IMG/VR virus record: IMGVR_UViG_3300024301_000093
Coordinates: 1-24,298 of that record
Source of the DNA: a virus
Direction: 5' to 3' (one strand)
DNA: 24,298 bases
Shown here piece by piece: positions 7,312 to 24,298 of the stretch. The notes under the pieces are model-generated. The model ran no database searches. It worked only from the letters and a program-made list of their open reading frames with translations, and was not told the origin of the DNA. How positions within the stretch are numbered: position 1 is the first letter of the stretch; every line of letters begins with the position of its first letter. Both the position numbers and the translations under genes were made by a program.

Positions 7312-7314
7312 AAC

Positions 7315-7762: not shown

Positions 7763-7781
7763 GGTTATCCCGATAGTTAAC

Positions 7782-7811: not shown

Positions 7812-7837
7812 CAAAAGAAAAGGGGCCCGAAGGCCCC
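7811..7837 (-). terminator. Intrinsic terminator after the major capsid gene
   Basis: Read on the minus strand: GGGGCC, loop TTCG, GGCCCC (7822-7837), then a T-rich tract TTTTCTTTTG. The stem starts 8 bases after the capsid stop codon at 7845. The same hairpin core, GGGGGCC-TTCG-GGCCCC, recurs on the plus strand at 17157-17180. It would separate high-level capsid mRNA from the tail genes. Confidence 0.9.
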
Positions 7838-7844
7838 CAATCTG

Positions 7845-8753: not shown

Positions 8754-8766
8754 TGTCTACTCCTCC

Positions 8767-9360: not shown

Positions 9361-9371
9361 GATTAGCTCCT

Positions 9372-10848: not shown

Positions 10849-10859
10849 GGGGTTACCTC

Positions 10860-11309: not shown

Positions 11310-11499
11310 CGTCATTGTCCATATAGTTTTTCGCGAGGTCTGTAATGGTTTGCTTGCTGATCTCCAGACCACGGATAAGACCAACAACTTCCCTAAACTC
11401 TGCGTAGTCCTTGGGACTACCAGTAGTTAAGAAACTTTCTGCAGATGAGATTTCCTCACCGATACGTTGTTCAAGCACGTCAAAGACGGTTTTAGCCAT
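11302..11499 (-). CDS. Small helical protein between portal and GroES-like genes, 65 aa
   Basis: The sequence MAKTVFDVLEQRIGEEISSA, then ESFLTTGSPKDYAEFREVVG, LIRGLEISKQTITDLAKNYM and an acidic end DNDDD predicts two or three amphipathic helices. I recall a similar small protein with a G-x-x-x-D-[YF]-x-E-[YF]-x-x-x-x-G motif just after portal genes in other phages, without known function. It starts 3 bases after the portal stop. The acidic tail DNDDD is encoded by the bases that overlap the next gene's start. Confidence 0.75.
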   Translation of the reverse strand: MAKTVFDVLEQRIGEEISSAESFLTTGSPKDYAEFREVVGLIRGLEISKQTITDLAKNYMDNDDD

Positions 11500-11502
11500 G
11501 TT

Positions 11503-13959
11503 TTAGCCTTTCTGCTTATCAGATAATAGTTTTGCCAACTCTAGATCAAGTTTCGTGCTATCTCGTCGACGGTCTGCTGCGAGTTTTACGCCTTCTTTTT
11601 GCGCCTGCAAGGACAACTCTTGTTGGTCCATCTGGAGTTTCTGCGCTTCTAAGATAGCGTCTGCCTGATCTTTCTGAGACTTGCGCTCCAATTCACGCTG
11701 TTTAAGCTGCTGATCTGATTGATCTTTCTGCTGTTTGCGTTGGACTTCCTGAGCTTTAATCTGCAACTCGGCTTGCTGCATCTGTACTACTGGGTCTTGC
11801 GCTTGCTCCTGTGCTTGCGCCTGCGCTGCCTGCTGCTGTTTCGCTTGCGTCAGCTGCGCCCCTGCATCTGCGACCAACCTAGACAGCTCAACTTCAATCT
11901 GCTCTGGCAGCTCCGCATTAGGCGCGGGTAGCGAGGCTCCAAGTTTCTCCTCAATTTGCTGCCTGTACTGATACCCAAGGTGTTCAGCAATATGCGCCTG
12001 TAGTGACGCCATAATCTGCTGTGCTTGCGGGTTTTGCCCGATCATCTGCGCAACTTGTGGGTCCTGCATAAACGACATATGTACGGCTATGTGTGCTTCG
12101 TGGTCTTGGTAAATAAATGCCTTCATGGGTTTACCAACCAACGCGTCCATATTCTCACTGACTGGATCAGCCGGTTTCGCGTCGTCCGAAATGGGTACGA
12201 GCTTATCGGCGTTTTTAACCCCCAAAACCTCGATCATCTGCCTATGCAACTGTGGCAAATCGTAAATTTGCGGGGCTGACTGTGCCATCTGCAACACCGC
12301 TTGGTATTGCACGACACGCTGGGCCATGGTGGAACTGTTAGGATCACTAACAGGGATGACATCCACCATCATATAGTCGCTATTCCGGGCAGACATCTCC
12401 CCCCGGACAGGCACATACTCATACTCTACAGGGGCAAACTCCGCCATGATGTCTTTGAGCATCTTAAACTCTTGCTTCATCGCGTAGTGGACCCGGGCTT
12501 GTACTGCTGCCATGGGTTTCAGCGTACGTTCCAGCAACGCAAGAGTGGTACCAACTGGCGCATTTGCGGACATATCAGAGATATTCATGTCGCTAATTGC
12601 ACCCAGACGACGCCCTTCCTGTGTGATCTGGTTTAGAAGTTGTAACAGGGTCTGCGACGGTTCCTTGTACGGAAGAGGCATGATGTTGTCACGGATACTA
12701 CCTGATGGCACATCGACGTCTTTCCATTCCCCCGGCTCAATCGGCGTATCGTCGCCTTTTATGCGCAGCCCACGGGATTTCAAGCCACCCGGCAGGTTAG
12801 ACAGCGTACCAGCGTCCACCAACTGCCGTATAAGCGACGTTCCCGCTCTGGCGTACCCACCTATAATGTGGATGAGTCCAAGCCCGTAGAAGCCAAATCC
12901 CGGCACGTACACGTAATGTACGAAGTGCTGGCGCTTCAACATCAAGGGGTCGTCTTCATTCCAGTTACGTCGAATACCTAAAACCTCGCCAGTACCCCGC
13001 TCAATCGTTACGATGTAGGGTTTGGCTATATCGTCGTCTGAGTCGTCGACACCATCGATAACCATATCGACATGCACTTCATACAGTGCGTAACGATCGT
13101 CATCAGTTAGGGAGAACCCGCCTTCTTCAGCCTTACGCTCCTCAATATCTGAGTGGTACGGCATCGGATCGCCAAGTTCTACGTCACGGTAGAAGCCGCC
13201 CGCCTGCAGTTTACGCAGCTCATTCTTCGTCTTACGCATAACGTGGGTTACACGTTCAGCAGTCTCGATATGAGACGCGCCGTAGGGCACAATAACGTCT
13301 TCTGCGGGGATGTAGATGGCAATCTGACGTCCCATATTGGGATCGTAGTACACCTTCTTAAACGCGGAGCCTGACAACCCTAGGCTATACAGCAAACGCT
13401 CATGCTCTGGTCGGTACTCAACCATATGCTCAGTAAGCTGATAGTTCATATCAGCTTTGACACGTTGTGAGGCTTCTACCTTCTCTTTTGTCTCTTCCCC
13501 GAGAATTTTAACCTTTACGGGACCTGCTGCAGGGAATGTCTCTGACATTGTCTCCGCTTGGAAGCGAATAGCCGCCTCAGCAAGGATCGTGGAGTATACG
13601 CCACTAGCGCCTTCCCACGGCTGGGTGCGCTCTTCGTACTTGAATCCAAGCACTTCCAACCCTTTAACGAACGTATCAGCCCACTCTTTCCGAGCGTCTA
13701 TATCAGCTGTTACCAACCCAACAACGTCGTTTGAGATTTCACGTAAGTGACTGTCGTCAAGGACCTCAGCTAAGTTAATATCAAACTCTAGAACGTCAGA
13801 TACTTCTGCATCAGGGATTAGGGTAATCTCCATGGAGCCGTCATCTAGGACAACCGCTTCAGGGTCAATGATTTCAATGTTTAGCTCCCCTACCTCTTCA
13901 CCCTGCATCTCTTCGTCAATGCTTTCTGGTGCGGAGTAGAGCCCTTTTTCAATAGCCAT
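11503..13959 (-). CDS. Portal protein, 818 aa
   Basis: This is the dodecameric ring at one capsid vertex through which DNA is packaged. The position just after large terminase and the length of 700-850 aa fit large portals of short-tailed-type phages. Recognisable stretches are EERTQPWEGASGVYSTILAE near residue 110, RLLYSLGLSGSAFKKVYYDP (stem/crown entry), FVHYVYVPGFGFYGLGLIHI, and the GISDMNISDMSANAPVGTTL-type loop with Ala in place of the first Gly. The last ~118 residues are a Gln/Ala/Lys-rich coiled coil (QAKQQQAAQAQAQEQAQDPV and onward), as in portals with a barrel or long C-terminal helix. It is 11 bases from terL and 3 bases from the next gene, in the same operon. Confidence 0.92.
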   Translation of the reverse strand: MAIEKGLYSAPESIDEEMQGEEVGELNIEIIDPEAVVLDDGSMEITLIPDAEVSDVLEFDINLAEVLDDSHLREISNDVVGLVTADIDARKEWADTFVKGLEVLGFKYEERTQPWEGASGVYSTILAEAAIRFQAETMSETFPAAGPVKVKILGEETKEKVEASQRVKADMNYQLTEHMVEYRPEHERLLYSLGLSGSAFKKVYYDPNMGRQIAIYIPAEDVIVPYGASHIETAERVTHVMRKTKNELRKLQAGGFYRDVELGDPMPYHSDIEERKAEEGGFSLTDDDRYALYEVHVDMVIDGVDDSDDDIAKPYIVTIERGTGEVLGIRRNWNEDDPLMLKRQHFVHYVYVPGFGFYGLGLIHIIGGYARAGTSLIRQLVDAGTLSNLPGGLKSRGLRIKGDDTPIEPGEWKDVDVPSGSIRDNIMPLPYKEPSQTLLQLLNQITQEGRRLGAISDMNISDMSANAPVGTTLALLERTLKPMAAVQARVHYAMKQEFKMLKDIMAEFAPVEYEYVPVRGEMSARNSDYMMVDVIPVSDPNSSTMAQRVVQYQAVLQMAQSAPQIYDLPQLHRQMIEVLGVKNADKLVPISDDAKPADPVSENMDALVGKPMKAFIYQDHEAHIAVHMSFMQDPQVAQMIGQNPQAQQIMASLQAHIAEHLGYQYRQQIEEKLGASLPAPNAELPEQIEVELSRLVADAGAQLTQAKQQQAAQAQAQEQAQDPVVQMQQAELQIKAQEVQRKQQKDQSDQQLKQRELERKSQKDQADAILEAQKLQMDQQELSLQAQKEGVKLAADRRRDSTKLDLELAKLLSDKQKG

Positions 13960-13970
13960 ACTTTAACCTC

Positions 13971-15524
13971 TTAATAATATCCACCTCTACGCTGTCGAAA
14001 ATAGACAACGTCTTCTGGTTCATCCGAGGGTAGACGAATAAACCCTCCCTGACGGAATCGCATAAGCGCCATCACTGTTGAGTCAACTAAGTCATCATGA
14101 CTCATAAAAGGGAATCCAGCAATCTCTTCTATTACTTCTTCCGCCCATCTGGTAGGCGGTATCCACACTAAACCCGAGGCGACAATATCTGCTACGGAGT
14201 TAAGTCGCGCTAATTTATCACCAGACCCCCTATGGGGAGTATACTCCGATACGGGTAACCCCATACGTCGCATCTCTTGATACAGCGCGGTTCCCGCGGA
14301 CTTCTTTTCCACGATAAACGCATCTGGGTCCCAGTCACTGTACTCGGCCATTGCTAGCTCTTTAAGCTCAGGAAACTCCAAACGCTTCTTAATACTGTTG
14401 AGCAGTATGATGTTGTAGGCACCCGTCTCCTCGTTGAAGAACACTCCCCACGTCGTTAGTGCCGTAAAGTCAGCACGGTTGTGGGTTTCTGCCGCAGCAT
14501 CAAGAGACATGATGATATATTCACATGTGGGCGGGTTATCCTGCTCCCACGTGTTCCACCACTCCCGCTTGATGATAGACGCCTCTTCGGCGGTTGGTTG
14601 CTGCTGATACTGCGCATTCCACTGGAATGCTGGCATAGATGCCTTTGTACGCAGGAGGGCTTCCAGATCGAAAAACTCAGGCCACAACGGCTTCTGTACC
14701 CACGTGGCCGTTTCTTCGTCCTGAATATCCAGTAGGGCGGGGAACTCAACAACCTCGTACTGGTCAGCACGGTTGTTTTTTACCATGTCAGTTGTCACTC
14801 TGCCTGTGAGGTCATCCATGTGCCAACGGGTTTGAATGATAGCCACCCGTCCCCCCGGCATGAGACGAGTACGCGCACCGAACGTAAACCACTCGTACGC
14901 CTTCTCGAAAACTTCAAAATTACCATTAATGACATCTTGCTCTGAGTGCGGGTCATCGACCAAGAGAAGATCGGCACCACGACCAGCAAGTGCCGACCCA
15001 ATACCACACGCATAATATTCACCGCCTACATTCGTGTTCCAACGTCCTGCTGACTTGCTATCCTGCGCTAGACATGTTGTAGGAAATACCTGTTTGTACG
15101 TATCTGTAGCAATTAAGTTACGTACCTTACGTCCAAAATCCACCGCCAAGTCTGTGGTGTGGGACACCATCATAACTTTCTTGGTCGGATTCCTACCTAA
15201 AAACCAAGCTGGGAACATTATTGACACGAGCTGGGACTTGCCATGACGAGGGGGTATATTTACGCATATCCGGTCCTTGTCGCCCGTCTCGATAGCCATG
15301 AGCATATTTGCCAGCTTGCGGTGATGGGCACCGACTATGTAGTCAGGCTGCATCCGCTGGCAAAACGCTATGAGGTCGTCAAACGCTGCTTGGTTCTCTT
15401 TACGTGACGATAGTTCACCGGCCATCTCGGCGATCTCGGCCAACTCATCGTCGCTAAACGCATCGAGGTTGGCGAGCATAGTCTCTATCTCGCTTTCGGT
15501 GAAATCGTGAGTTACCTCAGTCAT
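13971..15524 (-). CDS. terL: Terminase large subunit (ATPase/nuclease), 517 aa
   Basis: This is the packaging motor and nuclease. Walker A is PPRHGKS (residues 91-97), Walker B is LLLVDD (186-191) and the coupling motif is IQTRWH (230-235). The RNase-H-like nuclease half has MSLDAAAETHNRADFTAL (Asp342), VEKKSAGTAL (Glu406) and SHDDLVDS (Asp477/478). The start used is the ATG at 15524 (MTEVTHDF). A TTG one codon earlier is possible but unnecessary. It overlaps the terS end by 8 nt, suggesting coupled translation. The length is normal and no motif is missing. It docks on the portal encoded next. Confidence 0.95.
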   Translation of the reverse strand: MTEVTHDFTESEIETMLANLDAFSDDELAEIAEMAGELSSRKENQAAFDDLIAFCQRMQPDYIVGAHHRKLANMLMAIETGDKDRICVNIPPRHGKSQLVSIMFPAWFLGRNPTKKVMMVSHTTDLAVDFGRKVRNLIATDTYKQVFPTTCLAQDSKSAGRWNTNVGGEYYACGIGSALAGRGADLLLVDDPHSEQDVINGNFEVFEKAYEWFTFGARTRLMPGGRVAIIQTRWHMDDLTGRVTTDMVKNNRADQYEVVEFPALLDIQDEETATWVQKPLWPEFFDLEALLRTKASMPAFQWNAQYQQQPTAEEASIIKREWWNTWEQDNPPTCEYIIMSLDAAAETHNRADFTALTTWGVFFNEETGAYNIILLNSIKKRLEFPELKELAMAEYSDWDPDAFIVEKKSAGTALYQEMRRMGLPVSEYTPHRGSGDKLARLNSVADIVASGLVWIPPTRWAEEVIEEIAGFPFMSHDDLVDSTVMALMRFRQGGFIRLPSDEPEDVVYFRQRRGGYY

Positions 15525-16119
15525 CAAACGACCCGGTAGTGCCTAGTTCTGCGTCTACATCGAGGGTATCCCCATCGATAATTACTGCGTCTTCTGCATC
15601 TTCGGGGGGATTTACTAGTTTTACGAGCTTGGCACGGAGCCGATCTTTCAACTCATCCGTTGTCTGGTGGGTTAAGGTAACTTCGGTCTTCTCAGAGAAG
15701 AGTCCAACGTCTGAAATCTTGCCCAGAAGCTCTAATGCGCGTATCCGCACCCGAGGATCAGGGTTGTCCGTCTCTTGAATGAGCTTATTTGTCACCAGAT
15801 GCCGTACTTGCACCGCATTTTGCACCACTGAGTGCCCAAACTGACTGAGTATAGTGTGGGTCACCATCAAAGTGGCCGGGGGTAGGGACGATGCACGCTT
15901 GTTGTTTACTTTCTTAGAGGTACCTTCGGGGTCATCGGCGTAAGCTAACGTCAATTTAGCCGCCGCTTCCTCGTCTTCACGGGTCTGAGTGACGTCCAAA
16001 CCATGTTCAGCCAGCATAGAAGCAGTATTACATGCCGCTTCTGCACGGGCACGGAGGTCTATGTACGGAACTTTGTCCGAATAGGGCACGCCTATTTCTG
16101 GTTCTATCGTAAATTCCAT
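15517..16119 (-). CDS. Putative terminase small subunit, 200 aa
   Basis: This is the first gene of the late operon and overlaps terL, the usual place of the small terminase that recognises the packaging site. The chain is helical from about residue 20 to 130 (RARAEAACNTASMLAEHGLD, TLMVTHTILSQFGHSVVQNA, VRIRALELLGKISDVGLFSE), has KTEVTLTHQTTDELKDRLRA and ends acidic (DAEDAVIIDGDTLDVDAELG). RALELLGK.SDVGLFxEK resembles the small-terminase text seen in other marine phages. A clear N-terminal helix-turn-helix cannot be shown by eye, so the call rests mainly on position. Promoter candidates lie at 16154-16182 and 16325-16354. Confidence 0.7.
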   Translation of the reverse strand: MEFTIEPEIGVPYSDKVPYIDLRARAEAACNTASMLAEHGLDVTQTREDEEAAAKLTLAYADDPEGTSKKVNNKRASSLPPATLMVTHTILSQFGHSVVQNAVQVRHLVTNKLIQETDNPDPRVRIRALELLGKISDVGLFSEKTEVTLTHQTTDELKDRLRAKLVKLVNPPEDAEDAVIIDGDTLDVDAELGTTGSFDD

Positions 16120-16153
16120 GGTACATCCGCAGGTTTAACACCGATACTGCCGG

Positions 16154-16182
16154 TTTATACACAATAATTTATTTTTATGCAA
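16154..16182 (-). promoter_or_regulatory. Candidate promoter immediately upstream of terS
   Basis: On the minus strand TTGCAT (16177-16182), a 17-base A/T-rich spacer and TATAAA (16154-16159) precede the terS ATG by about 35 bases. The -10 matches 5 of 6 positions and the -35 matches 3 of 6. Confidence 0.45.
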
Positions 16183-16244
16183 GGAGGTTGGGACTCCTAC
16201 CGGGGGGTGTTCCTATATATGAGGGGGGTGGGGGTCCGACCCAG

Positions 16245-16275
16245 AAAAAAAGACCCCCTCGAAATACAAGGGGGT
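16245..16275 (-). terminator. Intrinsic terminator in the late leader, minus strand
   Basis: On the minus strand ACCCCCT (from 16275 to 16269), a 9-nt loop and AGGGGGT (16259 to 16253) are followed by C and seven T (16251-16245). The middle arm could instead pair with GGGGGTC at about 16230-16236, an alternative structure that would disrupt the terminator. It lies between two minus-strand promoter candidates. Confidence 0.75.
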
Positions 16276-16324
16276 AAATTGCACTAAGTGCTATGGGAGG
16301 GTATTACGAGGATATAGAACGTGC

Positions 16325-16354
16325 ATTATAACAACTGTTTGTATCTATACGCAA
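16325..16354 (-). promoter_or_regulatory. Extended -10 promoter upstream of the leader terminator
   Basis: On the minus strand TGT precedes a perfect TATAAT (16325-16330), giving the TGnTATAAT extended -10 form. A weak -35, TTGCGT (16349-16354), lies 18 bases upstream. A transcript starting near 16318 would reach the terminator hairpin after about 43 nt. Confidence 0.55.
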
Positions 16355-16483
16355 TTATATATGCAAGGTCGATTTCAAAAAATGCGTAGTTATTCGTGTA
16401 AATTAGTAATATATAAGTAATGCTGGAGTCCCAACTGGTAAACGGGGTGTACGGGGGCGGTGGGGGTCGACTTAGCGTGATTT

Positions 16484-16500
16484 GTTAGTGCGCCACTAAC
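16484..16500. promoter_or_regulatory. GTTAG element copy 1 (perfect dyad)
   Basis: GTTAGTG-CGC-CACTAAC, extended by TT and AA on the two sides. It lies about 50 bases upstream of the -35 of the plus-strand promoter and upstream of the minus-strand promoters, a place where one protein could affect both directions. Confidence 0.8.
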
Positions 16501-16549
16501 AAGGCGAAATTATAAACTGTCGAGATATGTCGAGATGTGTGTTTATCTA

Positions 16550-16578
16550 TTGATTTGTTACATTATATTTAGTTTAAT
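16550..16578 (+). promoter_or_regulatory. Sigma-70 promoter for the plus-strand arm
   Basis: TTGATT (16550-16555), 17 bases, TTTAAT (16573-16578). The -35 matches 4 of 6 and the -10 matches 5 of 6 positions. Transcription would start near 16585, about 60 nt before the first plus-strand gene. Confidence 0.6.
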
Positions 16579-16585
16579 GGGAACC

Positions 16586-16607
16586 ACTGGCGGCGAGAAC
16601 CACCAGT
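16586..16607 (+). other. 5' leader hairpin of the first plus-strand gene
   Basis: ACTGGCGG (16586-16593), loop CGAGAA, CCACCAGT (16600-16607) with one C-A mismatch. It starts at about the predicted transcript start. The 11 bases at 16592-16602 (GGCGAGAACCA) are the exact reverse complement of 18149-18159 in the leader of the operon starting at 18250. Confidence 0.5.
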
Positions 16608-16644
16608 AATTAAATTAACCTTAATAACTTATGGAGCATATATC

Positions 16645-17151
16645 ATGCGTACATTATCTAATGACACTATCAAGAAAGTAGCAAAGGCAATTGAAACCAC
16701 AGTTCGCGCCGACGTTGCGCGAGGCGCGGCCCTTGATCTACTTGTTGCCGATGGATTCGACAAGGTATCAGACTACGTTAGTCCCAAGTCCAACGGCTCC
16801 ACATGTGAGCCCGACGAATGGGAAGCGCTGAAGGGCGCCGTCATTATGGGATTCAGTAAAACGGTTCAGTCCATACTCGATACGCCAACTAAGGCCCTTG
16901 ACGACGTTAAGAAATCCGATAAGCGATACTGGCAGCAACAAGTAAACGCCCGCATCGCGGACTTCAAACGACAACTTGCCAAACGTGAGGCGGCCGAGGA
17001 ACGCGGCGCATCGCGTACTAGGACACTGGCAGAATGGTTCACGGACTTTGCGAACGATGGCGAGAAAAAACTGCGCAATGCGGAGGAATGCACGTTCGAT
17101 ATCTTGCCGGTGCTCAAGATGGTTCAGGAAATAAAACGACTTGTTAAGTAA
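16645..17151 (+). CDS. Unknown plus-strand protein, 168 aa
   Basis: This is the first gene of the rightward arm, closed by its own terminator, so it is expressed as a single-gene unit from the promoter at 16550-16578. The start has GGAG about 9 bases upstream. The chain is helical and charged (MRTLSNDTIKKVAKAIETTV, RADVARGAALDLLVADGFDK), with an aromatic/basic helix KSDKRYWQQQVNARIADFKR then QLAKREAAEERGASRTRTLA and an end IKRLVK. There is no known domain, signal peptide or membrane helix. Position, separate control and basic helices would allow a regulator or DNA-binding role, perhaps for the GTTAG elements. That is speculation. Confidence 0.75.
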   Translation: MRTLSNDTIKKVAKAIETTVRADVARGAALDLLVADGFDKVSDYVSPKSNGSTCEPDEWEALKGAVIMGFSKTVQSILDTPTKALDDVKKSDKRYWQQQVNARIADFKRQLAKREAAEERGASRTRTLAEWFTDFANDGEKKLRNAEECTFDILPVLKMVQEIKRLVK

Positions 17152-17156
17152 TTATC

Positions 17157-17180
17157 GGGGGCCTTCGGGCCCCCCTTTTT
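17157..17180 (+). terminator. Intrinsic terminator after the 168-aa gene
   Basis: GGGGGCC (17157-17163), loop TTCG, GGCCCCC (17168-17174), one C, then five T. The hairpin core is the same as the terminator of the capsid gene at 7811-7837. Confidence 0.92.
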
Positions 17181-17195
17181 ATAGGATATATCAAT

Positions 17196-17381
17196 ATGAA
17201 ATTTGCACTGTTTATATTTGCCCTATCACTCACGGCATTCTTAATAGTTGGTACTGCCGACTTTCGCGAACAAATTGTTCAATACAATCACTACACTGAC
17301 ATGGTGTGCTCCGGCGCATGGCCGGACTACCGCGACATGAAACCCACATGCGACCGCCCCCAATACGGTCAAGCACAATAA
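17196..17381 (+). CDS. Small membrane-anchored or secreted protein, 61 aa
   Basis: Residues 1-20 (MKFALFIFALSLTAFLIVGT) form a hydrophobic segment with one N-terminal Lys, either a signal peptide or a single membrane anchor. The rest (ADFREQIVQYNHYTDMVCSG then AWPDYRDMKPTCDRPQYGQA) is polar with two Cys 14 residues apart that could form a disulfide outside the membrane. I recall similar VQYxHYxxMVCxGxWPDY proteins in marine phages without known function. An AGGA site lies about 11 bases before the ATG. It lies between two terminators, so it is expressed by read-through or from an unseen promoter. Confidence 0.75.
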   Translation: MKFALFIFALSLTAFLIVGTADFREQIVQYNHYTDMVCSGAWPDYRDMKPTCDRPQYGQAQ

Positions 17382-17392
17382 CACCTCATTAG

Positions 17393-17416
17393 CCCCGCTC
17401 CGGCGGGGTTTTTTTT
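17393..17416 (+). terminator. Intrinsic terminator after the 61-aa gene
   Basis: CCCCGC (17393-17398), loop TCCG, GCGGGG (17403-17408) and eight T (17409-17416). It starts 11 bases after the stop codon. Confidence 0.95.
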
Positions 17417-17486
17417 CGCCTAAAATTTGGCGATGCCAGTTACTGATATAGCGCGGAGCCACGCGGCACGCGTGAACAAGTAATAT

Positions 17487-17503
17487 GTTAGGTACACACT
17501 AAC
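17487..17503. promoter_or_regulatory. GTTAG element copy 2
   Basis: GTTAG-GTACA-CACTAAC in tandem unit 1. The left arm departs from the dyad at positions 6-7 while the right arm keeps CACTAAC. Confidence 0.75.
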
Positions 17504-17560
17504 AAGTTGATGCCAGTTATACGTATAGCGATGAGCCATGCGGCGCACATGGCTCATAAT

Positions 17561-17577
17561 GTTAGTGTTACACTAAC
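17561..17577. promoter_or_regulatory. GTTAG element copy 3 (perfect dyad)
   Basis: GTTAGTG-TTA-CACTAAC in tandem unit 2, three bases after that unit's own 10-bp stem-loop. Confidence 0.8.
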
Positions 17578-17639
17578 AAGTTGATACCAGTTATATGGAT
17601 AGCGATGAGCCACACGTGCGCTGTGTTAACAAATAATAT

Positions 17640-17656
17640 GTTAGGTACGCACTAAC
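17640..17656. promoter_or_regulatory. GTTAG element copy 4
   Basis: GTTAG-GTACG-CACTAAC in tandem unit 3. It differs from copy 2 at one base. Confidence 0.75.
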
Positions 17657-17709
17657 ACGTCGATACCAGTTATATGGGTAGCGCGGAGCTGCATGGCGCA
17701 TTATCTGGG

Positions 17710-18065
17710 TAATGTTCGTAATGTTCGCTTTAATGTTCGTAATGTTCGCTTGTTTTTAGCAAGTTGCGTACATTATGTTTTTGTGGCATTCAATTAAGGT
17801 ATTTGCAGGAGCGCGACTAAACGTGCCTATCGAGAAATGTAGTATCTTATCTAATAATAATAATAATAATAAAGTTCGTTTTATATATATATAGAGCGAT
17901 TCTGGAAAATATAAGTAAATCATTTTGTATTTTATTTGTTCGTTCTTCCTTTCCCGCGGTTTTCAGATGCTCTCTCCTCACAAAAGCGAACATTAGAACT
18001 TTACTTACATTTCAATAACTTACTTGCGAACATTAGCCGAACATTACCCCCTAAAAACGAACATT
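17710..18065. other. Candidate replication origin or operator array: inverted iterons around an A/T-rich core
   Basis: AATGTTCG occurs at 17711, 17720, 17732 and 17741, the last two being part of a perfect 21-bp tandem duplication (17710-17730 and 17731-17751). Its reverse complement CGAACATT occurs at 17987, 18027, 18038 and 18058. Most copies carry an outer T/A, giving TAATGTTCG. Between them lie seven TAA triplets (17852-17872), a TATATATATA run (about 17882-17892) and generally A/T-rich DNA. Repeated binding words bracketing a low-melting core is a layout of iteron origins. The right set also lies directly upstream of the promoter at 18093, so an activator or repressor site is the alternative. 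No gene is supported on either strand here. Confidence 0.6.
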
Positions 18066-18092
18066 ACATTCCCTACCACGTTTTACCATCAA

Positions 18093-18121
18093 TTGACATA
18101 GTTCACTACATTTGCTATAAT
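18093..18121 (+). promoter_or_regulatory. Perfect-consensus sigma-70 promoter of the AAA+/VWA operon
   Basis: TTGACA (18093-18098), 17 bases, TATAAT (18116-18121). Both hexamers and the spacing equal the bacterial consensus. Transcription would start near 18128, inside a GTTAGTG half-site (18129-18135). It drives the operon from 18250. Confidence 0.9.
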
Positions 18122-18130
18122 ATTACAAGT

Positions 18131-18188
18131 TAGTGGGGATTCGTCTGTTGGTTCTCGCCTTATCCATAAGTTGCAGCGGTCCCCACTA
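18131..18188 (+). other. 5' leader stem-loop of the AAA+/VWA operon
   Basis: TAGTGGGGA (18131-18139) pairs perfectly with TCCCCACTA (18180-18188), closing a 40-nt loop at the very 5' end of the predicted transcript. The loop carries TGGTTCTCGCC (18149-18159), complementary to the leader of the 168-aa gene. Confidence 0.6.
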
Positions 18189-18199
18189 GCTAACACTTT

Positions 18200-18216
18200 G
18201 TTAGTGACACACTAAC
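18200..18216. promoter_or_regulatory. GTTAG element copy 5 (perfect dyad)
   Basis: GTTAGTG-ACA-CACTAAC in the leader, between the promoter and the ATG at 18250, 33 bases before the start codon. Confidence 0.8.
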
Positions 18217-18249
18217 TTTTTACAACCTAACAACGTTCTGGAGAACGAT

Positions 18250-19146
18250 ATGGAAACTTTAAACGCACCATCACACGTATCTACACCCTCCATTGCCTCA
18301 AGTGCAATGTTAGTAGAGTTAAGTATCTCAACATGGACTGGCCGCAAGTTAGACAAGCGTGCATCGTCACAAGTTACCGCAACCCACGGTGCAGCGTCCG
18401 GTGTTGCCAATGTCAACAAGAAACTACTTGGTGACTGTGATGAGCTCACAGCCGTACAAAAGTTCACCGCTAACGTGCGCAACCTACACTACGGCATGAC
18501 GATGCCTTGGTCAGATACCGGCCTCCGACTACTGCCGACCGCACAATACTTCAAATACAACGAGGCAATGACCGCCGTGCAGGATGAGTATCGCCGCATG
18601 GTAGATAACTTTCTCCGTGCATATGACTGGGAAATTAGCCAAGCGCAGGCCAAGCTGGGTGAGTTATTCAACCATGCCGACTACCCGACTGCCGAATCTA
18701 TCAGACGTAAGTTTAGTTTTCGGTTCTCATATATACCGCTGCCTGAAGCAGGTGATTTCCGTGTTGACGTAGGCAACGAGGCTACGGCACAAATAACGCA
18801 GCATTACAAGTCATATTATACGTCGCAGCTGGAATCTGCCATGCGTGACGTGTGGCAACGGACATATACCGCGCTATCTAAAATGTCAGAGCGGCTCGAC
18901 TATGCCGACGACACACACAAAAAAGTGTTTCGCGATTCATTAGTATCTAACGTGCTCGACATGGTAGAACTGTTGGACGTGTGCAACGTGACGGGTGACT
19001 CGCAGATGGCGGCACTACGCGCCAAGCTCGACGATACCTTGCGGGGCGTTACACCCGACGCGCTACGTGACGACGTGTACTTGCGTGCACAGACTAAACG
19101 TGCAGTTGATGCCGTCATCGCGCAACTTCCCTCGCTTGACGTGTAA
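18250..19146 (+). CDS. DUF3150-like protein, partner of the AAA+/VWA pair, 298 aa
   Basis: The N-terminus has LVELSISTWTGRKLDKRASS (residues ~21-40). This resembles the [LV]SIW[ST]G[RK]K opening of DUF3150 proteins, which are often encoded beside CobS-type ATPases and VWA proteins on plasmids and phages (recalled; not searched). The middle has RNLHYGMTMPWSDTGLRLLP and YDWEISQAQAKLGELFNHAD, then FSFRFSYIPLPEAGDFRVDV; the C-terminal third is helical. No catalytic motif is seen. The ribosome-binding site is GGAGAACGAT. Being the first gene of the operon with the ATPase and VWA gene following suggests a shared complex, with this protein as substrate or adaptor. The family call is moderate. Confidence 0.6.
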   Translation: METLNAPSHVSTPSIASSAMLVELSISTWTGRKLDKRASSQVTATHGAASGVANVNKKLLGDCDELTAVQKFTANVRNLHYGMTMPWSDTGLRLLPTAQYFKYNEAMTAVQDEYRRMVDNFLRAYDWEISQAQAKLGELFNHADYPTAESIRRKFSFRFSYIPLPEAGDFRVDVGNEATAQITQHYKSYYTSQLESAMRDVWQRTYTALSKMSERLDYADDTHKKVFRDSLVSNVLDMVELLDVCNVTGDSQMAALRAKLDDTLRGVTPDALRDDVYLRAQTKRAVDAVIAQLPSLDV

Positions 19147-19149
19147 CAA

Positions 19150-19166
19150 GTTAGTGTGACACTAAC
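19150..19166. promoter_or_regulatory. GTTAG element copy 6 (perfect dyad)
   Basis: GTTAGTG-TGA-CACTAAC, three bases after the stop of the DUF3150-like gene and 21 bases before the ATPase start. On mRNA it would be a 7-bp hairpin. Confidence 0.85.
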
Positions 19167-19187
19167 AACTAAAACTGGAGAACGACA

Positions 19188-20288
19188 ATGACTACCACAA
19201 ATACCGCAACAACTATGTATGCACTCAACCTTGACCAGATCGCCACCGCCATACGTGTGGGTGGACATAACCGCACGGTGCTCGTGCAGGGCCACATGGG
19301 TACGGGCAAGTCGTCACTGCTACGCACACTTGCTGACGAATTACCGCAACATACCCCGTGTTACTTCGACTGTACGACTAAGGACCTCGGTGACATATCC
19401 ATACCCAAGCTGGCGACACTGGACGATGCCGATTACGTTTCATATGCGACTAACGAGGAGCTCGGTGCTCACCTCGACAAGCCCATCATCCTCATGGTCG
19501 ATGAGTACGGCAAGGCTAACCCCGCCGTGAAGAACTCACTGTTACGACTCATGCTAGAGCGTAAGATCGGTAGTTACACACTGCACCCTGACTCATTAGT
19601 ATTTGCGACAACTAACCTCGGGGCCGAGGGTGTAGGCGACCTGTTGCCACCACATGCACGCAACCGCATAACAGTGCTAACAGCGCGCAAACCTGACAAT
19701 ATGGAGTGGATAGAGTGGGGCATAAACAACGGCATCGACCACACACTGCTCGGTTGGTGTAAGGACAACCCGCACTTGTTCCACGGATTCGAGAGTGTTC
19801 CACGGCCCGATGACAACCCGTATATATACCACCCGCAGCAGCAGCGGACGGCGTTTGTCACACCACGATCACTCGAAGCTGCCTCCGACTGGCTCAAGCA
19901 GCGTGAGAACTTCGACGACCAGACCCTGACAAGTTTACTTATGGGTACTATCGGCGACCGTGGGGCCATGGACCTGATGGCGTTCGTGAAGCTGGCTGAC
20001 CAGCTGCCGTCACTACAGTCTATCAAGGACTCACCAGCGACGGCTAAGGTGCCTGACTCCTCCGCTGCCGTGTGTATGGTGGTGTACCGGACACTTGCGA
20101 CAATCGGTGCCGACTGGGTAGACGCGTGGATGGAGTATATGAACCGGCTCGACAAGGAAGCGCAGGGTATGTTCGCTAACGGGGTACGCGCACCCAAGTA
20201 CGCCCACCAGAAACTTGTTATGACAAACCGCAAGTTTACCGAGTGGGCCATGCAGAATAACTATATGTTCGCCGCTGATAAGACGTAA
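19188..20288 (+). CDS. CobS/MoxR-type AAA+ ATPase, 366 aa
   Basis: Walker A is GHMGTGKSS (residues 35-43), Walker B is IILMVDEYG (100-108), sensor 1 is FATTN (139-143) and the arginine-finger region is HARNRI (156-161). The rest of the AAA+ lid is followed by a helical C-terminal part. The segment YFDCTTKDLGDISIPKLATL after the first helix is where CobS/MoxR proteins place their pre-Walker-B inserts. Members work with VWA proteins to remodel or insert cofactors into partners (CobS-CobT, NorQ-NorD, RavA-ViaA). The VWA partner is the next gene. All ATPase residues are present, so it should be active. The ribosome-binding site is GGAGAACGACA. Substrate unknown. Confidence 0.85.
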   Translation: MTTTNTATTMYALNLDQIATAIRVGGHNRTVLVQGHMGTGKSSLLRTLADELPQHTPCYFDCTTKDLGDISIPKLATLDDADYVSYATNEELGAHLDKPIILMVDEYGKANPAVKNSLLRLMLERKIGSYTLHPDSLVFATTNLGAEGVGDLLPPHARNRITVLTARKPDNMEWIEWGINNGIDHTLLGWCKDNPHLFHGFESVPRPDDNPYIYHPQQQRTAFVTPRSLEAASDWLKQRENFDDQTLTSLLMGTIGDRGAMDLMAFVKLADQLPSLQSIKDSPATAKVPDSSAAVCMVVYRTLATIGADWVDAWMEYMNRLDKEAQGMFANGVRAPKYAHQKLVMTNRKFTEWAMQNNYMFAADKT

Positions 20289-20305
20289 GTTAGGGCGGCA
20301 CTAAC
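20289..20305. promoter_or_regulatory. GTTAG element copy 7
   Basis: GTTAGGG-CGG-CACTAAC begins on the base after the ATPase stop codon, 11 bases before the next ATG. One left-arm base breaks the dyad. Confidence 0.8.
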
Positions 20306-20316
20306 AGGAGAACGAC

Positions 20317-21495
20317 ATGTTATCTATAGGTAAACAACTCACACCAGAACAACGCCTGTCTAAAGCTGTTGTCGACATCATGGGTAATCCGCAGTACGTA
20401 GCACTCGCAGGCATACTCATGCTGGGTGACCGCAGGGTAGACGACACCGTACCTACCGCATGTACTAACGGACGTGATGAGTTATATGGCCGAGCGTTTA
20501 TCGACAGTCTTAACGACGCAGAGTTACGGTTCCTTGTACTGCACGAGAGTTATCACAAGTTATACCGTCACCTCGTTACATGGCGACACTTGCACGATGA
20601 GAATGCGCAGTTAGCAAACATGGCGTGCGACTACGTTATCAACTGTAAGATATCAGACGATAACTCTAACGGGTGGGCTAAGATGCCAGACGGCGGCTGT
20701 TTAGATTTTAAGTACCGTGGCTGGGATAGCGCGCAGGTATTCAACGATCTCAAGGAATATAACAACTCACCAGATGGTGGGGGTGGTGGCACACTCGACG
20801 ACCACGACTGGGATGGTGCCGAAGAACTTACCGAGGCAGAACAGCGTGAGCTTGCACGGGATATCGACGAGGCCATACGTCAAGGTGCGTTGATCGCAGG
20901 TAAGCTGGGCAACGGTGCAGACCGTGACATAGTCGCACTACTCGAGCCGCAGGTAGACTGGCGTGAGGTGTTGCGAGAGTTTATCCAGAATACTTGTGCG
21001 GGTAGTGACTACTCCACGTGGAAACGACCGAACCGCAGGTTTATATCAGGTGGTTACTACTTACCCTCCGGTATATCAGAGCAGGTAGGAGAACTTGTTA
21101 TAGCCGTTGATACGTCCGGTTCGATTGGGCAGGTAGAGCTGTCGTCATTCCTTACCGAGGTCAAAGCGATATGCGATACCGTGCACCCCGATGCCGTACG
21201 GTTACTCTACTGGGATACTAGTGTGCGCCAAGACGAGAAGTATGACATGCACCAGCTGGATAGCCTTGTCACGTCGACCAAGCCCAAGGGTGGCGGTGGT
21301 ACGTCCGTTACATGTGTACCCACTTATCTTGCCGAGCACGGCGTCAAACCCCAAGCGGTTCTCGTACTCACCGATGGCTACTTAGGTGGTGAGTGGGGCC
21401 GGTGGGCGTCCCCCGTCCTCTGGTGCATATTGGATAACAAGTCAGCACAGCCGACTGTTGGTAAACACGTACACATTAAATCAGGAGATATGTAA
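20317..21495 (+). CDS. VWA protein with N-terminal metallopeptidase-like domain, 392 aa
   Basis: The N-terminal domain carries LRFLVLHESYHKLYRHL, an HExxH zinc site (His76, Glu77, His80), followed by ANMACDYVIN (Asp105 a candidate third ligand), as in the DUF2201 putative metallopeptidase family. A Gly/Asp-rich linker (residues ~150-165, with GGGGG) follows. The C-terminal VWA-like domain has a full MIDAS: DTSGS (265-269), GGTSV (Thr329) and LTDGY (Asp353). In bacteria such VWA-metallopeptidases pair with MoxR-type ATPases; here the ATPase gene is directly upstream. Peptidase activity is inferred from motif only. The stop overlaps the next ATG by one base. Confidence 0.85.
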   Translation: MLSIGKQLTPEQRLSKAVVDIMGNPQYVALAGILMLGDRRVDDTVPTACTNGRDELYGRAFIDSLNDAELRFLVLHESYHKLYRHLVTWRHLHDENAQLANMACDYVINCKISDDNSNGWAKMPDGGCLDFKYRGWDSAQVFNDLKEYNNSPDGGGGGTLDDHDWDGAEELTEAEQRELARDIDEAIRQGALIAGKLGNGADRDIVALLEPQVDWREVLREFIQNTCAGSDYSTWKRPNRRFISGGYYLPSGISEQVGELVIAVDTSGSIGQVELSSFLTEVKAICDTVHPDAVRLLYWDTSVRQDEKYDMHQLDSLVTSTKPKGGGGTSVTCVPTYLAEHGVKPQAVLVLTDGYLGGEWGRWASPVLWCILDNKSAQPTVGKHVHIKSGDM

Positions 21496-21638
21496 TGACT
21501 TATTCAGAAGCAAACGAAACAATCGAAGCGTGGTTAGCGTTTATTCATGGCTACATGAATGACTGCCCAGAGGACTACACCATTGAAGATCACGAGAATT
21601 TAGAACTCGCCTTCAAGATCATCAGAGACGGCCACTAA
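21495..21638 (+). CDS. Small acidic protein, 47 aa
   Basis: Translation gives MTYSEANETIEAWLAFIHGY, then MNDCPEDYTIEDHENLELAF and KIIRDGH. The ATG overlaps the VWA gene stop by one base (TAATG), with AGGAG about 10 bases upstream, and the stop is directly followed by a GTTAG element. It is acidic and predicted helical with no known domain. Tight coupling to the VWA gene suggests that it works with, or is made in proportion to, that protein. Confidence 0.7.
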   Translation: MTYSEANETIEAWLAFIHGYMNDCPEDYTIEDHENLELAFKIIRDGH

Positions 21639-21655
21639 GTTAGGGTGGCACTAAC
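21639..21655. promoter_or_regulatory. GTTAG element copy 8
   Basis: GTTAGGG-TGG-CACTAAC starts on the base after the 47-aa gene's stop, 20 bases before the next ATG. It differs from copy 7 by one base. Confidence 0.8.
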
Positions 21656-21675
21656 AAGATAACAGGAGAACGACA

Positions 21676-22704
21676 ATGACTTTACACTACTACGACATCG
21701 ATAGTTTCAAGTGGGTAGAAACTAGATACAACAACACACCCCCCGTGCGAGAACATGAGCACGGCACCAAACGTGACATACGACCTATCGGCGACCGCGC
21801 CTATAAGTGGGAGCACATACACAAGTTTTCAGATGCTTGCTACGGGTTGTTTGATGGGGCCGATGGGGACCCCGTGCAGATACAGATGTGGCGGTTCGAC
21901 AAACCCACTACCGCCGAGAGTAAGAAGTTATGCCCGATATTATGGGAACGACACCGCGATGGCACCGAGACTGTTACCATACGTAACGGCTCCGGCACCA
22001 ACGCTCACAATGCACGATATTCGTTTCTACAACGATATCTGCCAAGGGCTCTACGGTTTGAGAACAGAAACGGCAAGCACTTCATATATAACAGTGACGC
22101 CGGTAGCATGTATTATCTCGCAAAGTCCCGCACTATAACCGCCGCACGTAAACAACATATAGATCGTGGTACTAAAAATTGGTGGCTGAAAAAAGAAAGG
22201 TTTATATCCCGCGATGATGGAGCAGCGTTGACCTTTGAGCGCCGTGTAGATACTGAGATCGCTAGGTTTGCGTTTGTGGGTGGCGGGCTCGCTGTGCCGA
22301 AACCACCGCGTACCGTAGTTAGGAAGTCAGAGAAAGCTAAGCATAAACAAGCTATTGCAGATTTCTGGGAGTTTGCTTGCGCAATGGGTCCGATGCTGCC
22401 GATAGATTCGTACCAGTACCGGTATGATCTGCGGAAGGAGTTAATAGAACACACCGACAAATCCAACAACAACAACAACAACAATACTACTTTCTATAAC
22501 GGGCGAGAGTTTTTTAACCTCCCCCATAAGTTTGCACGAGAGGTATTGAAAGATACTAATCACCCTATGCGGTTAAACCTACTAGTAGAGTTCGTGAAGG
22601 ACTCCGACATACAGTACGTTGAAACCGACGCCGATGCACAGCGCGTGCGGGAGCAATATAACCGGTGGATAAACAAGGTGTGTGGATTTACCAAACAAAT
22701 ATAA
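21676..22704 (+). CDS. Unknown plus-strand protein, 342 aa
   Basis: No family is recognised. The N-terminal ~140 residues are aromatic and polar (HYYDIDSFKWVETRYNNTPP; ERHRDGTETVTIRNGSGTNA). A basic middle has SRTITAARKQHIDRGTKNWW and RFAFVGGGLAVPKPPRTVVR, then KSEKAKHKQAIADFWEFACA. Residues 264-270 are seven Asn encoded by a (AAC)6AAT tract at 22465-22485, a likely flexible linker and slippage-prone site. The C-terminus (REFFNLPHKFAREVLKDTNH and on) is helical. The ribosome-binding cassette is AGGAGAACGACA, as for its neighbours. Basic helices suggest nucleic-acid contact, but this is only a guess. Confidence 0.75.
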   Translation: MTLHYYDIDSFKWVETRYNNTPPVREHEHGTKRDIRPIGDRAYKWEHIHKFSDACYGLFDGADGDPVQIQMWRFDKPTTAESKKLCPILWERHRDGTETVTIRNGSGTNAHNARYSFLQRYLPRALRFENRNGKHFIYNSDAGSMYYLAKSRTITAARKQHIDRGTKNWWLKKERFISRDDGAALTFERRVDTEIARFAFVGGGLAVPKPPRTVVRKSEKAKHKQAIADFWEFACAMGPMLPIDSYQYRYDLRKELIEHTDKSNNNNNNNTTFYNGREFFNLPHKFAREVLKDTNHPMRLNLLVEFVKDSDIQYVETDADAQRVREQYNRWINKVCGFTKQI

Positions 22705-22722
22705 GGTAACAGGAGAACGACG

Positions 22723-23577
22723 ATGAGATACCCACATAAACTAGTTAGTGCGGCACTAACACAGTATAACCTCAAGGAGCCCTATGACGAGCTTGAAAAG
22801 TTCAGAGACGCAGTGTTGCAAGGTATTCACGGGCTACGTGCTACCAATGCAATACATAGTAGTTGGATTATCAACTTATACTACGACAGCTGCCCATTCA
22901 CCGTTGGGGCTATATGGATAGATACAGACAAACAAGGGAACCGTACCTATACCGTTGAATCGCGGGGTATACAGAACAGAAAGTTTAGCGACTATAACGA
23001 CCTTAGGTATACCAAAACGAGTAAGGACCTCGATAAAGCTGTTAGAGTCGCGAAAAAGTATTGCCGCCCGTATACTCCGCACGAGCTGTTGCACTGCACG
23101 GCACGTGATGCTAACAGTTGTATAAGTTCGTTCTCGAAAGAACTACACAGTAAGCTACAAGAAAAAAGCATTAATACGCTGAATCAACCACGACTGCTTC
23201 GAGAGCTTGAACATCTAGTACAGTCTAACCACTCATGGGTCGACCCCGAATTTGGGGAAGATTTAGTTGCTATGCTTGACCTACAAAAACAAGCCGATGC
23301 CGCTGCCGCCGCTGCGCGTGGTAAGGCATGGTTCGTACGGGTTTACCAGCGGGCAGGACAACAGATGTTTGACGTCATACCGATAAGTGATATAGGGCGG
23401 CCAATTCTTGTTAGCTTGGAAAATGACCATGTCGGAGAATCAACGCCGTACACTGACGCCGGCGTACCAGACTGGCTCATGGGTAAACTCGCAGTGCTTA
23501 GTATGATTGGTAGCGGTACGTACGTCGAAGGGGTTGGGTACAGCGTTGGGGAGGGTATGTTCTATGTCACAGAATAA
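22723..23577 (+). CDS. Unknown plus-strand protein with C-terminal EGVG domain, 284 aa
   Basis: The N-terminal domain contains SSWIINLYYDSCPFTVGAIW and IDTDKQGNRTYTVESRGIQN, a beta-rich part, then a helical middle (HELLHCTARDANSCISSFSK, ELHSKLQEKSINTLNQPRLL) and an Ala-rich linker (ADAAAAAARGKAW). The final 38 residues (247-284), GVPDWLMGKLAVLSMIGSGT and YVEGVGYSVGEGMFYVTE, match the end of the next protein (pattern [VL]P[DE]W...K[VL]AVL.M...[VI]EGVG). A GTTAG element lies inside the coding part (codons 8-13). No enzyme motif is found. Confidence 0.75.
   Translation: MRYPHKLVSAALTQYNLKEPYDELEKFRDAVLQGIHGLRATNAIHSSWIINLYYDSCPFTVGAIWIDTDKQGNRTYTVESRGIQNRKFSDYNDLRYTKTSKDLDKAVRVAKKYCRPYTPHELLHCTARDANSCISSFSKELHSKLQEKSINTLNQPRLLRELEHLVQSNHSWVDPEFGEDLVAMLDLQKQADAAAAAARGKAWFVRVYQRAGQQMFDVIPISDIGRPILVSLENDHVGESTPYTDAGVPDWLMGKLAVLSMIGSGTYVEGVGYSVGEGMFYVTE
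22744..22760. promoter_or_regulatory. GTTAG element copy 9, inside a coding region
   Basis: GTTAGTG-CGG-CACTAAC, a perfect dyad, lies at codons 8-13 of the 284-aa gene and is translated as part of LVSAALT. This gap between genes (22705-22722) has no copy, so the element appears to have been kept by embedding it in the gene. Confidence 0.8.
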
Positions 23578-23830
23578 CTACTCACTATGTGATGATAAGA
23601 TATACCGCGTATACATAGACCCTACAACAAAACACGTATATACAGTATGTATTGATATTGACAGTGACAAAAGGGAGTACTATGATTCTCCTGATGACTT
23701 GCCTGAGTGGGTGCAAGCGAAGGTCGCTGTCTTAATGATGACGTCATTGACGAAGCCGACTGAAGTTATCGAGGGTGTAGGCCGTCGCATTGATGCGAAT
23801 ACTTATTGGGTAGTAGAGCCACTGGCCTGA
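23564..23830 (+). CDS. Small protein related to the C-terminus of the preceding gene, 88 aa
   Basis: The start chosen is the ATG at 23564 (MSQNNYSLCDDKIYRVYIDP), which has GGGGAGGG about 8 bases upstream. It overlaps the preceding gene by 14 nt. Residues 45-88 (DLPEWVQAKVAVLMMTSLTK, PTEVIEGVGRRIDANTYWVV, EPLA) parallel residues 247-284 of the upstream protein. The N-terminal half is a beta-type segment with IYRVYIDPTTKHVYTVCIDI. I recall similar LPEWVQ.K.AVLMM...IEGVGRR proteins in marine phages. The family and role are unknown; the pair looks like a tandem duplication. Confidence 0.75.
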   Translation: MSQNNYSLCDDKIYRVYIDPTTKHVYTVCIDIDSDKREYYDSPDDLPEWVQAKVAVLMMTSLTKPTEVIEGVGRRIDANTYWVVEPLA

Positions 23831-23860
23831 CTACAAACACCAAAAGCCGGAGTGCAACAG

Positions 23861-24235
23861 ATGAGTAAAGGCAGCAAACTACATGGCAACCACTGTCCAG
23901 CGTGTGAATCTTTTGCCGCGTCACCTATAGGGAAAGCCTTTAAGAGAGACTACATAAGAGAATTGCTTTCAAACAGCGAATTTTTATGGGCAGCCATTGG
24001 GCAAGACGCTGTTAAGACTCCAGCATGGATTCCACTGGGTATGCTGGAAGGAGAAGAGCTAGAAGCTGCTGCTGCTGAGAGGAGAAAATTCTGGGATGCA
24101 GAAGCCGATAAGATTGCTACTATGATTTTCCACAAGGATGATGCTGAACTGGGTAAGTATATTAGGAGCCTAGCAGAAGGCTACACAAAGCTGGAAGCAG
24201 ACTGTTGGCTTGAAGAAAACTTGGAGCTTGCTTGA
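23861..24235 (+). CDS. Unknown small protein with CxxC, 124 aa
   Basis: The start at 23861 (MSKGSKLHGNHCPACESFAA) is 8 bases after GGAG. A GTG at 23852 would lie inside that site. HCPACESF gives one CxxC pair, too little for a complete zinc site without further Cys. The rest is helical with EGEELEAAAAERRKFWDAEA and a Glu/Leu-rich end. All five Arg codons are AGA or AGG, unlike the CGN-rich genes at 18250-21495. It is not preceded by the GTTAG element or the GGAGAACGA cassette. It may therefore come from a different source than the rest of the arm. Function unknown. Confidence 0.65.
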   Translation: MSKGSKLHGNHCPACESFAASPIGKAFKRDYIRELLSNSEFLWAAIGQDAVKTPAWIPLGMLEGEELEAAAAERRKFWDAEADKIATMIFHKDDAELGKYIRSLAEGYTKLEADCWLEENLELA

Positions 24236-24298
24236 CTTTTTTTGTGGAGTGGTTGTAAGATGAAAGAAAGTGCCGGACGGTGATTAGCAGTCACCTAG

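Follow-up and report, generated by a model that had tools for sequence, protein, structure and literature searches.

What could a phage do with a MoxR-type AAA+ ATPase and a protein that joins an HExxH domain to a VWA domain, and how might such genes be governed? The question is raised by IMG/VR virus record IMGVR_UViG_3300024301_000093, a stretch of 24,298 bases (hereafter the window) which, judged by relatives of 58-68 kb, is a fragment. Three of its genes, spanning 18250-21495, encode a DUF3150 protein, the ATPase and the VWA protein (hereafter the trio). A reading of the letters alone, here called the original prediction, had added a 47-aa open reading frame (ORF) and proposed a four-gene operon at 18250-21638 that may remodel or cleave a host complex. 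Taken as a whole, the locus is best explained, with a probability of roughly 60%, as a remodelling trio at the head of an early operon, combined with a palindrome-based switch worked by the product of a nearby gene, which we call the slot gene. The known occurrence of the ATPase/VWA pair in N4-like and jumbo phages, the trio on megaplasmids and the palindromes between genes were all absent from the original prediction.

Pfam assigns all three proteins to the families that had been read from the letters: PF11348 (DUF3150) on the 298-aa protein (27.1 bits; cut-off 24.9), PF07728 (AAA_5) on the 366-aa ATPase (22.6 bits; cut-off 22.0), and DUF2201_N (84.6 bits) with the VWA-like DUF2201 (59 bits) on the 392-aa protein. 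PF20030 (bpMoxR) stayed below the Pfam cut-off in the window proteins. The ATPase matches phrog_1297, 'ATPase' (E 4.4e-47), and the VWA protein, encoded by the adjoining gene, matches phrog_1314 (E 5.1e-83), both over nearly their full length. The name 'HNH endonuclease', given to the HExxH-VWA protein in phrog_1314 and many phage records, is misleading, as the Pfam domains do not fit it. The motifs described as complete are also conserved. Invariant across the ATPases of 31 relatives are G35, G38, G40 and K41, which we take to be Walker A, D105 and E106 (presumably Walker B), N143 (presumably sensor 1) and R158 (presumably the arginine finger). Across 33 VWA proteins, the residues we take to be the metal-ion-dependent adhesion site (MIDAS; D265, S267, S269, T329 and D353) and the HExxH motif (H76, E77 and H80) are invariant, as are H85 and D105; the HExxH and the five MIDAS residues hold over ten aligned VWA rows from plasmids, phages and N4-like phages. 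In a PDB profile search the nearest solved sequence relative of the ATPase is midasin (Rea1; E 2.5e-4). The structural comparison suggested with the original prediction bore out the VWA protein, whose predicted model resembles VWA domains across residues 254-392 (best Z 12.9, root-mean-square deviation 2.5, 138 aligned), with the MDN1 MIDAS among the Foldseek matches. It gave nothing comparable for DUF3150, whose predicted model (mean local confidence, pLDDT, 82.5; predicted template-modelling score, pTM, 0.70) had no match in the PDB at E<=0.001 (best Foldseek E 0.25); its best VIA-align match, Z 9.6 over 97 residues, is a helical bundle and possibly just a common arrangement.

Scanned with the 298-aa DUF3150 protein, viral contigs gave 341 matching places; the top 80 serve here as related loci (L005-L084), and DUF3150 is present in 80/80 because it was the query. 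Among these loci the ATPase turned up in 77 and the VWA protein in 67, and the order DUF3150-ATPase-VWA is kept in all 51 that extend at least 3,500 nt past DUF3150. The 47-aa ORF recurs in one of the 80 (L005, practically the same virus as the window) and is rejected as a component. All four predicted ORFs exist, and the trio stands as a conserved unit; the fourth gene and the end at 21638 do not, since the operon runs on through ORFs at 21676-22704 (342 aa) and 22723-23577 (284 aa). Beyond these relatives, tblastn against 50,697 phage records matched the VWA protein in 669 and the ATPase in 443, many of which have the names and sizes of N4-like phages. DUF3150 was matched in three, with identical scores and none N4-like; one of the three, MinM2, has MoxR, DUF3150 and VWA genes within 4.5 kb. 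The two Schitoviridae examined show the ATPase, a small ORF and the VWA protein, then a helicase and DNA polymerase. No cultured phage showed DNA similarity to window positions 17900-22900, and the nearest terminase relatives, DSL-LC04 (48,000 of 61,547 bases viewed) and HTVC027P (47,596 of 57,595 bases viewed), have no annotated trio.

Plasmids carry the module as well. A DUF3150 search matched 43 plasmid records, all 20 listed places adjoin a VWA place, and in the four stretches viewed the ATPase, DUF3150 and VWA genes share one strand, with the ATPase of L088 about 3.6 kb away. Among bacterial genomes, the phage DUF3150 alignment found no relative in GTDB, and the plasmid-type alignment yielded 78 loci, a sample biased towards Burkholderiales, with the full trio in 58 and the VWA protein in 60. 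The exceptions are L093, which starts at a contig end, and L150, both without an ATPase match, and L149, which has the ATPase, a truncated DUF3150 and no VWA protein. Seventeen further loci (L151-L167; Planctomycetota, Deltaproteobacteria and others) lack both trio partners and have a different AAA protein in 14/17 and a DUF1257-like protein in 12/17. ThiF matches occur in 16 of the 44 trio loci with long flanks, and the plasmid trios L087 and L089 lie within 8 kb of PRTRC/ThiF genes. The trio is thus a conserved module common to megaplasmids and, without a detected DUF3150, to N4-like phages. The module is not new, as its ATPase/VWA pair corresponds to N4-like core genes and also occurs in jumbo phages; its third partner has drawn little notice. 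DUF3150 is not named in the literature searched, a search that excluded subscription papers and preprints.

In N4, gp24 and gp25 are core genes listed as 'unknown' and 'vWFA domain' (PMC4193335, PMC7650795). The window has the same kind of pair, which in N4-like phages (Schitoviridae) is adjacent or nearly so and close to helicase and DNA polymerase genes; unlike the window, these phages have no detected DUF3150, and protein identity is about 25-30%. Jumbo phage group 2.2, compared here by its description, shares the two-protein architecture of MoxR and metallopeptidase-vWA, and DUF3150 is not mentioned in the accessible part of that description (PMC7824862). The closest likeness in content is the cassette on megaplasmids of Burkholderiales and others, in which the three genes lie near each other on a single strand, although in the order ATPase-DUF3150-VWA. 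The MoxR-vWA ternary conflict systems have VMAP, iSTAND and others as third component, and their VWA protein bears effector domains that vary (PMC7159879). Kinship with them had been suggested, yet neither DUF3150 nor DUF2201 is mentioned in the accessible text of that paper. A MoxR-type AAA+ protein with a VWA/MIDAS partner also characterizes NorQD, CbbQO, RavA-ViaA and midasin; none of these is known to have a DUF3150 or an HExxH domain.

From its sequences we predict that the trio is a remodelling machine. The ATPase would form a ring in which the VWA partner docks in the fashion of NorQD or midasin, coupling ATP hydrolysis to the pulling or twisting of a target. In NorQD, a finger of the VWA partner reaches into the AAA+ ring, and a linker is twisted by the hydrolysis of ATP (PMC13036017). 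The HExxH domain would contribute a metal site, used either to cut or to handle metal. DUF3150 may be an adaptor that chooses the target, because it accompanies two kinds of AAA ATPase. We suspect that the trio acts early, in takeover or replication, rather than in virion assembly, given its promoter, its strand opposite to the terminase, the DNA_pol_A gene downstream in relative L010, the middle timing of N4 gp24/25 and the occurrence on plasmids.

What may govern this operon is suggested by short palindromes along it (Table 1). Nine copies of the 17-bp GTTAG-N7-CTAAC lie within 16484-22760, where 1.1 are expected with one mismatch allowed, and none lies in window positions 1-16483; five of the nine adjoin start codons. 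Relatives have palindromes of other sequences at equivalent places. The commonest palindrome with 5-bp arms beats the best of five dinucleotide shuffles in 81 of 82 loci (the window region and L005-L085), L064 being the exception. By number of loci, the classes are GTTAGTG-N3 (54), GTTAGGG-N4 (6), GTAGTC-N4 (4), TGTAGTG-N3 (4), TTTACGG-N4 (2), GTTAGTC-N3 (2), ATTAGGT-N4 (2), TTATAA-N4 (2), GTTATAC-N3 (1) and GTACGG-N3 (1); L042 and L081, with fewer than two perfect sites each, have no class. In a 62-kb relative all eight perfect GTTAGTG sites fall within 32,006-42,635. Among 356 sites with at most one mismatch, 168 are centred between -70 and +50 of an ATG start with a Shine-Dalgarno motif, against 13.9% for random positions, and the interval from -15 to +25 contains no centre. 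A further family, GGTTCA-N3-TGAACC, is found in MinM2 and its relative L085; the GTTCA-N3 core occurs 16 times in 24.8 kb of MinM2.

The palindrome class changes together with the slot gene, which encodes 168 aa in the window. A slot ORF could be picked in 54 of the 80 loci, and the slot proteins share a core that aligns with the window's at 15-49% identity; on these alignments we read them as one fast-diverging family. With similarity expressed as BLAST bits over self bits, loci whose DUF3150 similarity is at least 0.9 have a median slot similarity of 0.74 (minimum 0.56; n=99 pairs) when they share a palindrome class, and of 0.07 (maximum 0.08; n=9 pairs) when they do not. At DUF3150 similarities of 0.8-0.9, slot similarity is at least 0.30 within a class (n=96) and at most 0.15 between classes (n=18); looser bins overlap, for example 0.65-0.7, with a within-class minimum of 0.09 and a between-class maximum of 0.28. 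The nearest contrasts are L043/L046/L048 against L047/L049, L044 against L050, L072/L077 against L074, and L059 against L071. In nucleotide alignments of four contrast pairs, segments of 77.1-98.7% identity cover most of the locus and none covers most of the slot gene, though the alignments have other gaps too, above all at 5784-7230 in L072. When the count is restricted to sites whose flanks both align well, the partner shows its own class at 4/5 sites in L046/L049 (the fifth not placeable), 3/3 in L071/L059, 3/5 in L072/L074, 3/4 in L048/L047 (the fourth with one mismatch) and 3/7 in L044/L050, where the other four comprise one site that keeps the old class, two hybrids and one left unplaced.

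From this co-variation we infer that the slot gene encodes the factor that recognizes the palindromes, and its product is probably a DNA-binding regulator. As a dimer, it would recognize the palindromes, most likely in DNA rather than RNA, and once bound would repress or block early-gene transcription, as an early shut-off or exclusion switch. The slot proteins have no convincing relative in Pfam, PHROG or PDB, and searches for known domains, ParB-like ones included, found none in them; scattered hits of single proteins, the best a PHROG tail fiber family at E 2.3e-4 in 2/21 members, were not taken as relatives. A bolder version, to which we give a little less than even odds, is that the slot gene represents an undescribed family of sequence-specific regulators without a recognized DNA-binding domain. 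At least eight specificities would have been swapped as single-gene cassettes, with all matching palindromes of the early operon rewritten to follow and the hybrids of L050 as intermediates; the governed operon would start with a remodelling trio of mobile elements in which DUF3150 is the target-choosing adaptor.

The palindromes could instead act in RNA, as hairpins with a 7-bp stem and a 3-4-nt loop near ribosome-binding sites, serving processing, translation control or an N/nut-like antitermination whose specificity switches. The link of 168 of the 356 sites to gene starts means that an RNA role may still apply, and a terminator-like scan picks two of the palindromes. We nevertheless consider this unlikely, if a serious contender. 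Changes in one arm, which break pairing, outnumber paired changes in both arms by 95 cells to 7 over 396 sites, a tally that omits the TTATAA and GTACGG classes and comes from a site search biased against double changes; moreover, three of the window's copies belong to tandem repeats with a terminator on one side and the trio promoter on the other, where little transcription is expected. A DNA dyad is favoured because one-armed changes dominate and the tandem copies are non-coding. Copies clustered beside separate iteron-like repeats (17711-18065) would also suit a role in partition or replication, after the manner of ParB/parS or iterons, instead of an operator function, but the copies stand at successive gene starts over 6 kb of the window and the slot family has no detected ParB-like domain, and a partition or replication role seems to us very unlikely. 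Hairpin promoters of the N4 type, read by a phage RNA polymerase and suggested by the 3-nt loops of the palindromes, were set aside, as loops vary between copies and sites differ between near-identical phages; PF00940 matched 0/6 records, and also missed the control, so this result excludes nothing.

For the trio, a published alternative is a virion-assembly chaperone in which the MoxR/HExxH-VWA pair also processes structural proteins by peptidolysis. That role was proposed for the same architecture in jumbo phages, by analogy with Acidianus two-tailed virus (PMC7824862), and four virion proteins of RPP1, from a 'second structural module', are encoded near gp24/gp25 homologues (PMC4193335). 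It becomes distinctly unlikely when set against a trio that is transcribed away from the terminase from a host-type promoter, with a DNA polymerase following in a relative, against plasmids, which carry the same trio and have no virion, and against N4 gp24/25 being middle transcripts (PMC4193335). A further alternative is that the trio inserts metal or carries out cofactor chemistry of the chelatase kind, with CobST or NorQD as models. Metal insertion is among the known jobs of MoxR/VWA pairs (PMC13036017), and the HExxH domain could carry a metal. The original prediction had thought a chelatase role unlikely, and we agree in setting it aside as highly improbable: a CobN-family protein was found in 0/13 records searched, and the trio is not confined to chelatase neighbourhoods in the phage, plasmid and GTDB loci. 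No cofactor enzyme stands beside it in the annotated phage and plasmid stretches, the exceptions being a MinM2 ORF with the label MoaE and, on one plasmid, an ORF with a MOSC domain.

Several points weigh against the combination of a remodelling trio with a slot-protein switch. Slot ORFs come from only 54 of the 80 loci, and the pick in L053 looks like a different protein. The nine different-class pairs derive from three phage groups only (L043/46/48 with L047/49; L044 with L050; L072/74/77 with L076 and L075), the fourth contrast, L059 against L071, standing at a DUF3150 similarity of 0.89. L050 has a slot gene of the GTAGTC type, yet keeps one GTTAGTG site and two hybrid sites. Leave-one-out assignment of the class by slot similarity succeeds in 50/54 loci, barely above the 47/54 reached with DUF3150, a slim margin because one palindrome class dominates, and the regulators may lie elsewhere in the genomes. 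On the side of the trio, the model of the VWA protein is only moderate (pLDDT 76.3, pTM 0.48), structure searches with it found no fold match for the HExxH domain itself, and the authors who described the pair in jumbo phages place it in virion assembly (PMC7824862).

Dispersed sites tied to one regulator are known from other phages. The stoperators of cluster A mycobacteriophages are likewise many, spread through the genome, and of a class tied to one regulator; they are 13-bp, asymmetric sites in one orientation, bound by a monomeric helix-turn-helix repressor in temperate phages. Here the site class also co-varies with the slot gene, the putative regulator. Unlike stoperators, the sites of the window's lineage are dyad-symmetric and 17-18 bp long and neither a helix-turn-helix nor another known DNA-binding domain was detected in the slot family; tyrosine integrase was found in 0/18 records and serine recombinase in 0/6, none of them certified complete. 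The lineage, a group of uncultivated phages with genomes of about 60 kb, is probably virulent. The start-associated sequences (SAS) of cluster K mycobacteriophages and their extended form (ESAS) resemble our palindromes in being repeats tied to gene starts, partly with inverted repeats. However, SAS is asymmetric, 13 bp long and placed at the start itself, whereas the window's lineage has a gap in sites there and a class that swaps with one gene. By analogy, the palindromes may work like a dispersed-operator switch; we do not claim that they belong to the stoperator or SAS/ESAS families. Among titles and the starts of abstracts in the literature searched, which excluded subscription papers and preprints, no report pairs such palindromes with a slot-type gene, and the pairing suggests a type of phage gene switch not described so far.

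The predicted consensus promoter was found, with full -35 and -10 elements at the consensus spacing (Table 1). It is the sole 12/12 match within 15500-24298, and a site of at least 10/12 stands ahead of DUF3150 in 64 of the 77 relatives whose upstream stretch covers 250 nt or more. The leader behind it (18125-18249) folds at -39.4 kcal/mol (z -3.9), and in 30 of 44 distinct leaders from the window and relatives at least eight contiguous pairs start within 7 nt, with differing arm sequences. The terminase lies upstream on the opposite strand in 54 of the 80 relatives. The tandem repeats of 74-79 bp occupy 17432-17704, between a terminator and the trio promoter, and three of them have one palindrome each. 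Upstream of the promoter there are also iteron-like 8-mers, four copies of AATGTTCG at 17711-17749 and then four of CGAACATT, inverted, at 17987-18065, which may mark an origin or a regulator site. A strong hairpin precedes the slot gene, with one arm (16592-16606) 93% complementary to part of the leader (18145-18159). Over the whole window, Rfam gave a single, sub-threshold match and a tRNA search found none.

Table 1. Coordinates in the window of the trio, the slot gene, the palindromes and the control region
Feature	Position	Strand	Basis or remark
Palindrome	16484..16500		Upstream of slot gene, 153 nt before
168-aa slot protein, proposed palindrome recognizer	16645..17151	+	Replaced when palindrome class changes
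Palindrome	17487..17503		In 74-79-bp tandem repeat, non-coding
Palindrome	17561..17577		In 74-79-bp tandem repeat, non-coding
Palindrome	17640..17656		In 74-79-bp tandem repeat, non-coding
Sigma-70 consensus promoter of trio	18093..18121	+	TTGACA-N17-TATAAT, 12/12, TG ahead of -10
5' leader stem-loop of transcript	18128..18191	+	Fold; leaders of relatives
Palindrome	18200..18216		In leader ahead of DUF3150, centre -42 from start codon
DUF3150 protein, 298 aa, predicted helical partner of AAA+ ATPase	18250..19146	+	Pfam, predicted model
Palindrome	19150..19166		Ahead of ATPase gene, centre -30
MoxR/AAA_5-type AAA+ ATPase, 366 aa, phrog_1297, N4 gp24-like	19188..20288	+	Pfam, PHROGs, alignment
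Palindrome	20289..20305		Ahead of VWA gene, centre -20
HExxH putative metallopeptidase domain fused to VWA domain with MIDAS, 392 aa, phrog_1314, N4 gp25-like	20317..21495	+	
47-aa ORF, not conserved	21495..21638	+	1/80 relatives
Palindrome	21639..21655		Ahead of 342-aa gene, centre -29
Palindrome	22744..22760		Inside start of 284-aa gene, centre +29

From the perspective of phage biology, the ATPase/VWA pair counts among the core genes of a whole phage family, the N4-like phages, and its job is not stated in the accessible parts of the literature consulted here. The third conserved partner and the occurrence on megaplasmids, which have no virion, argue against virion assembly as its only job, and a defined three-protein set is now available for testing. 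The co-switching of slot gene and palindromes offers a ready natural panel of candidate regulator/site pairs in phages that are otherwise almost identical. Such a panel could be used to define a new recognition family and to study how a regulator evolves in step with its numerous sites.

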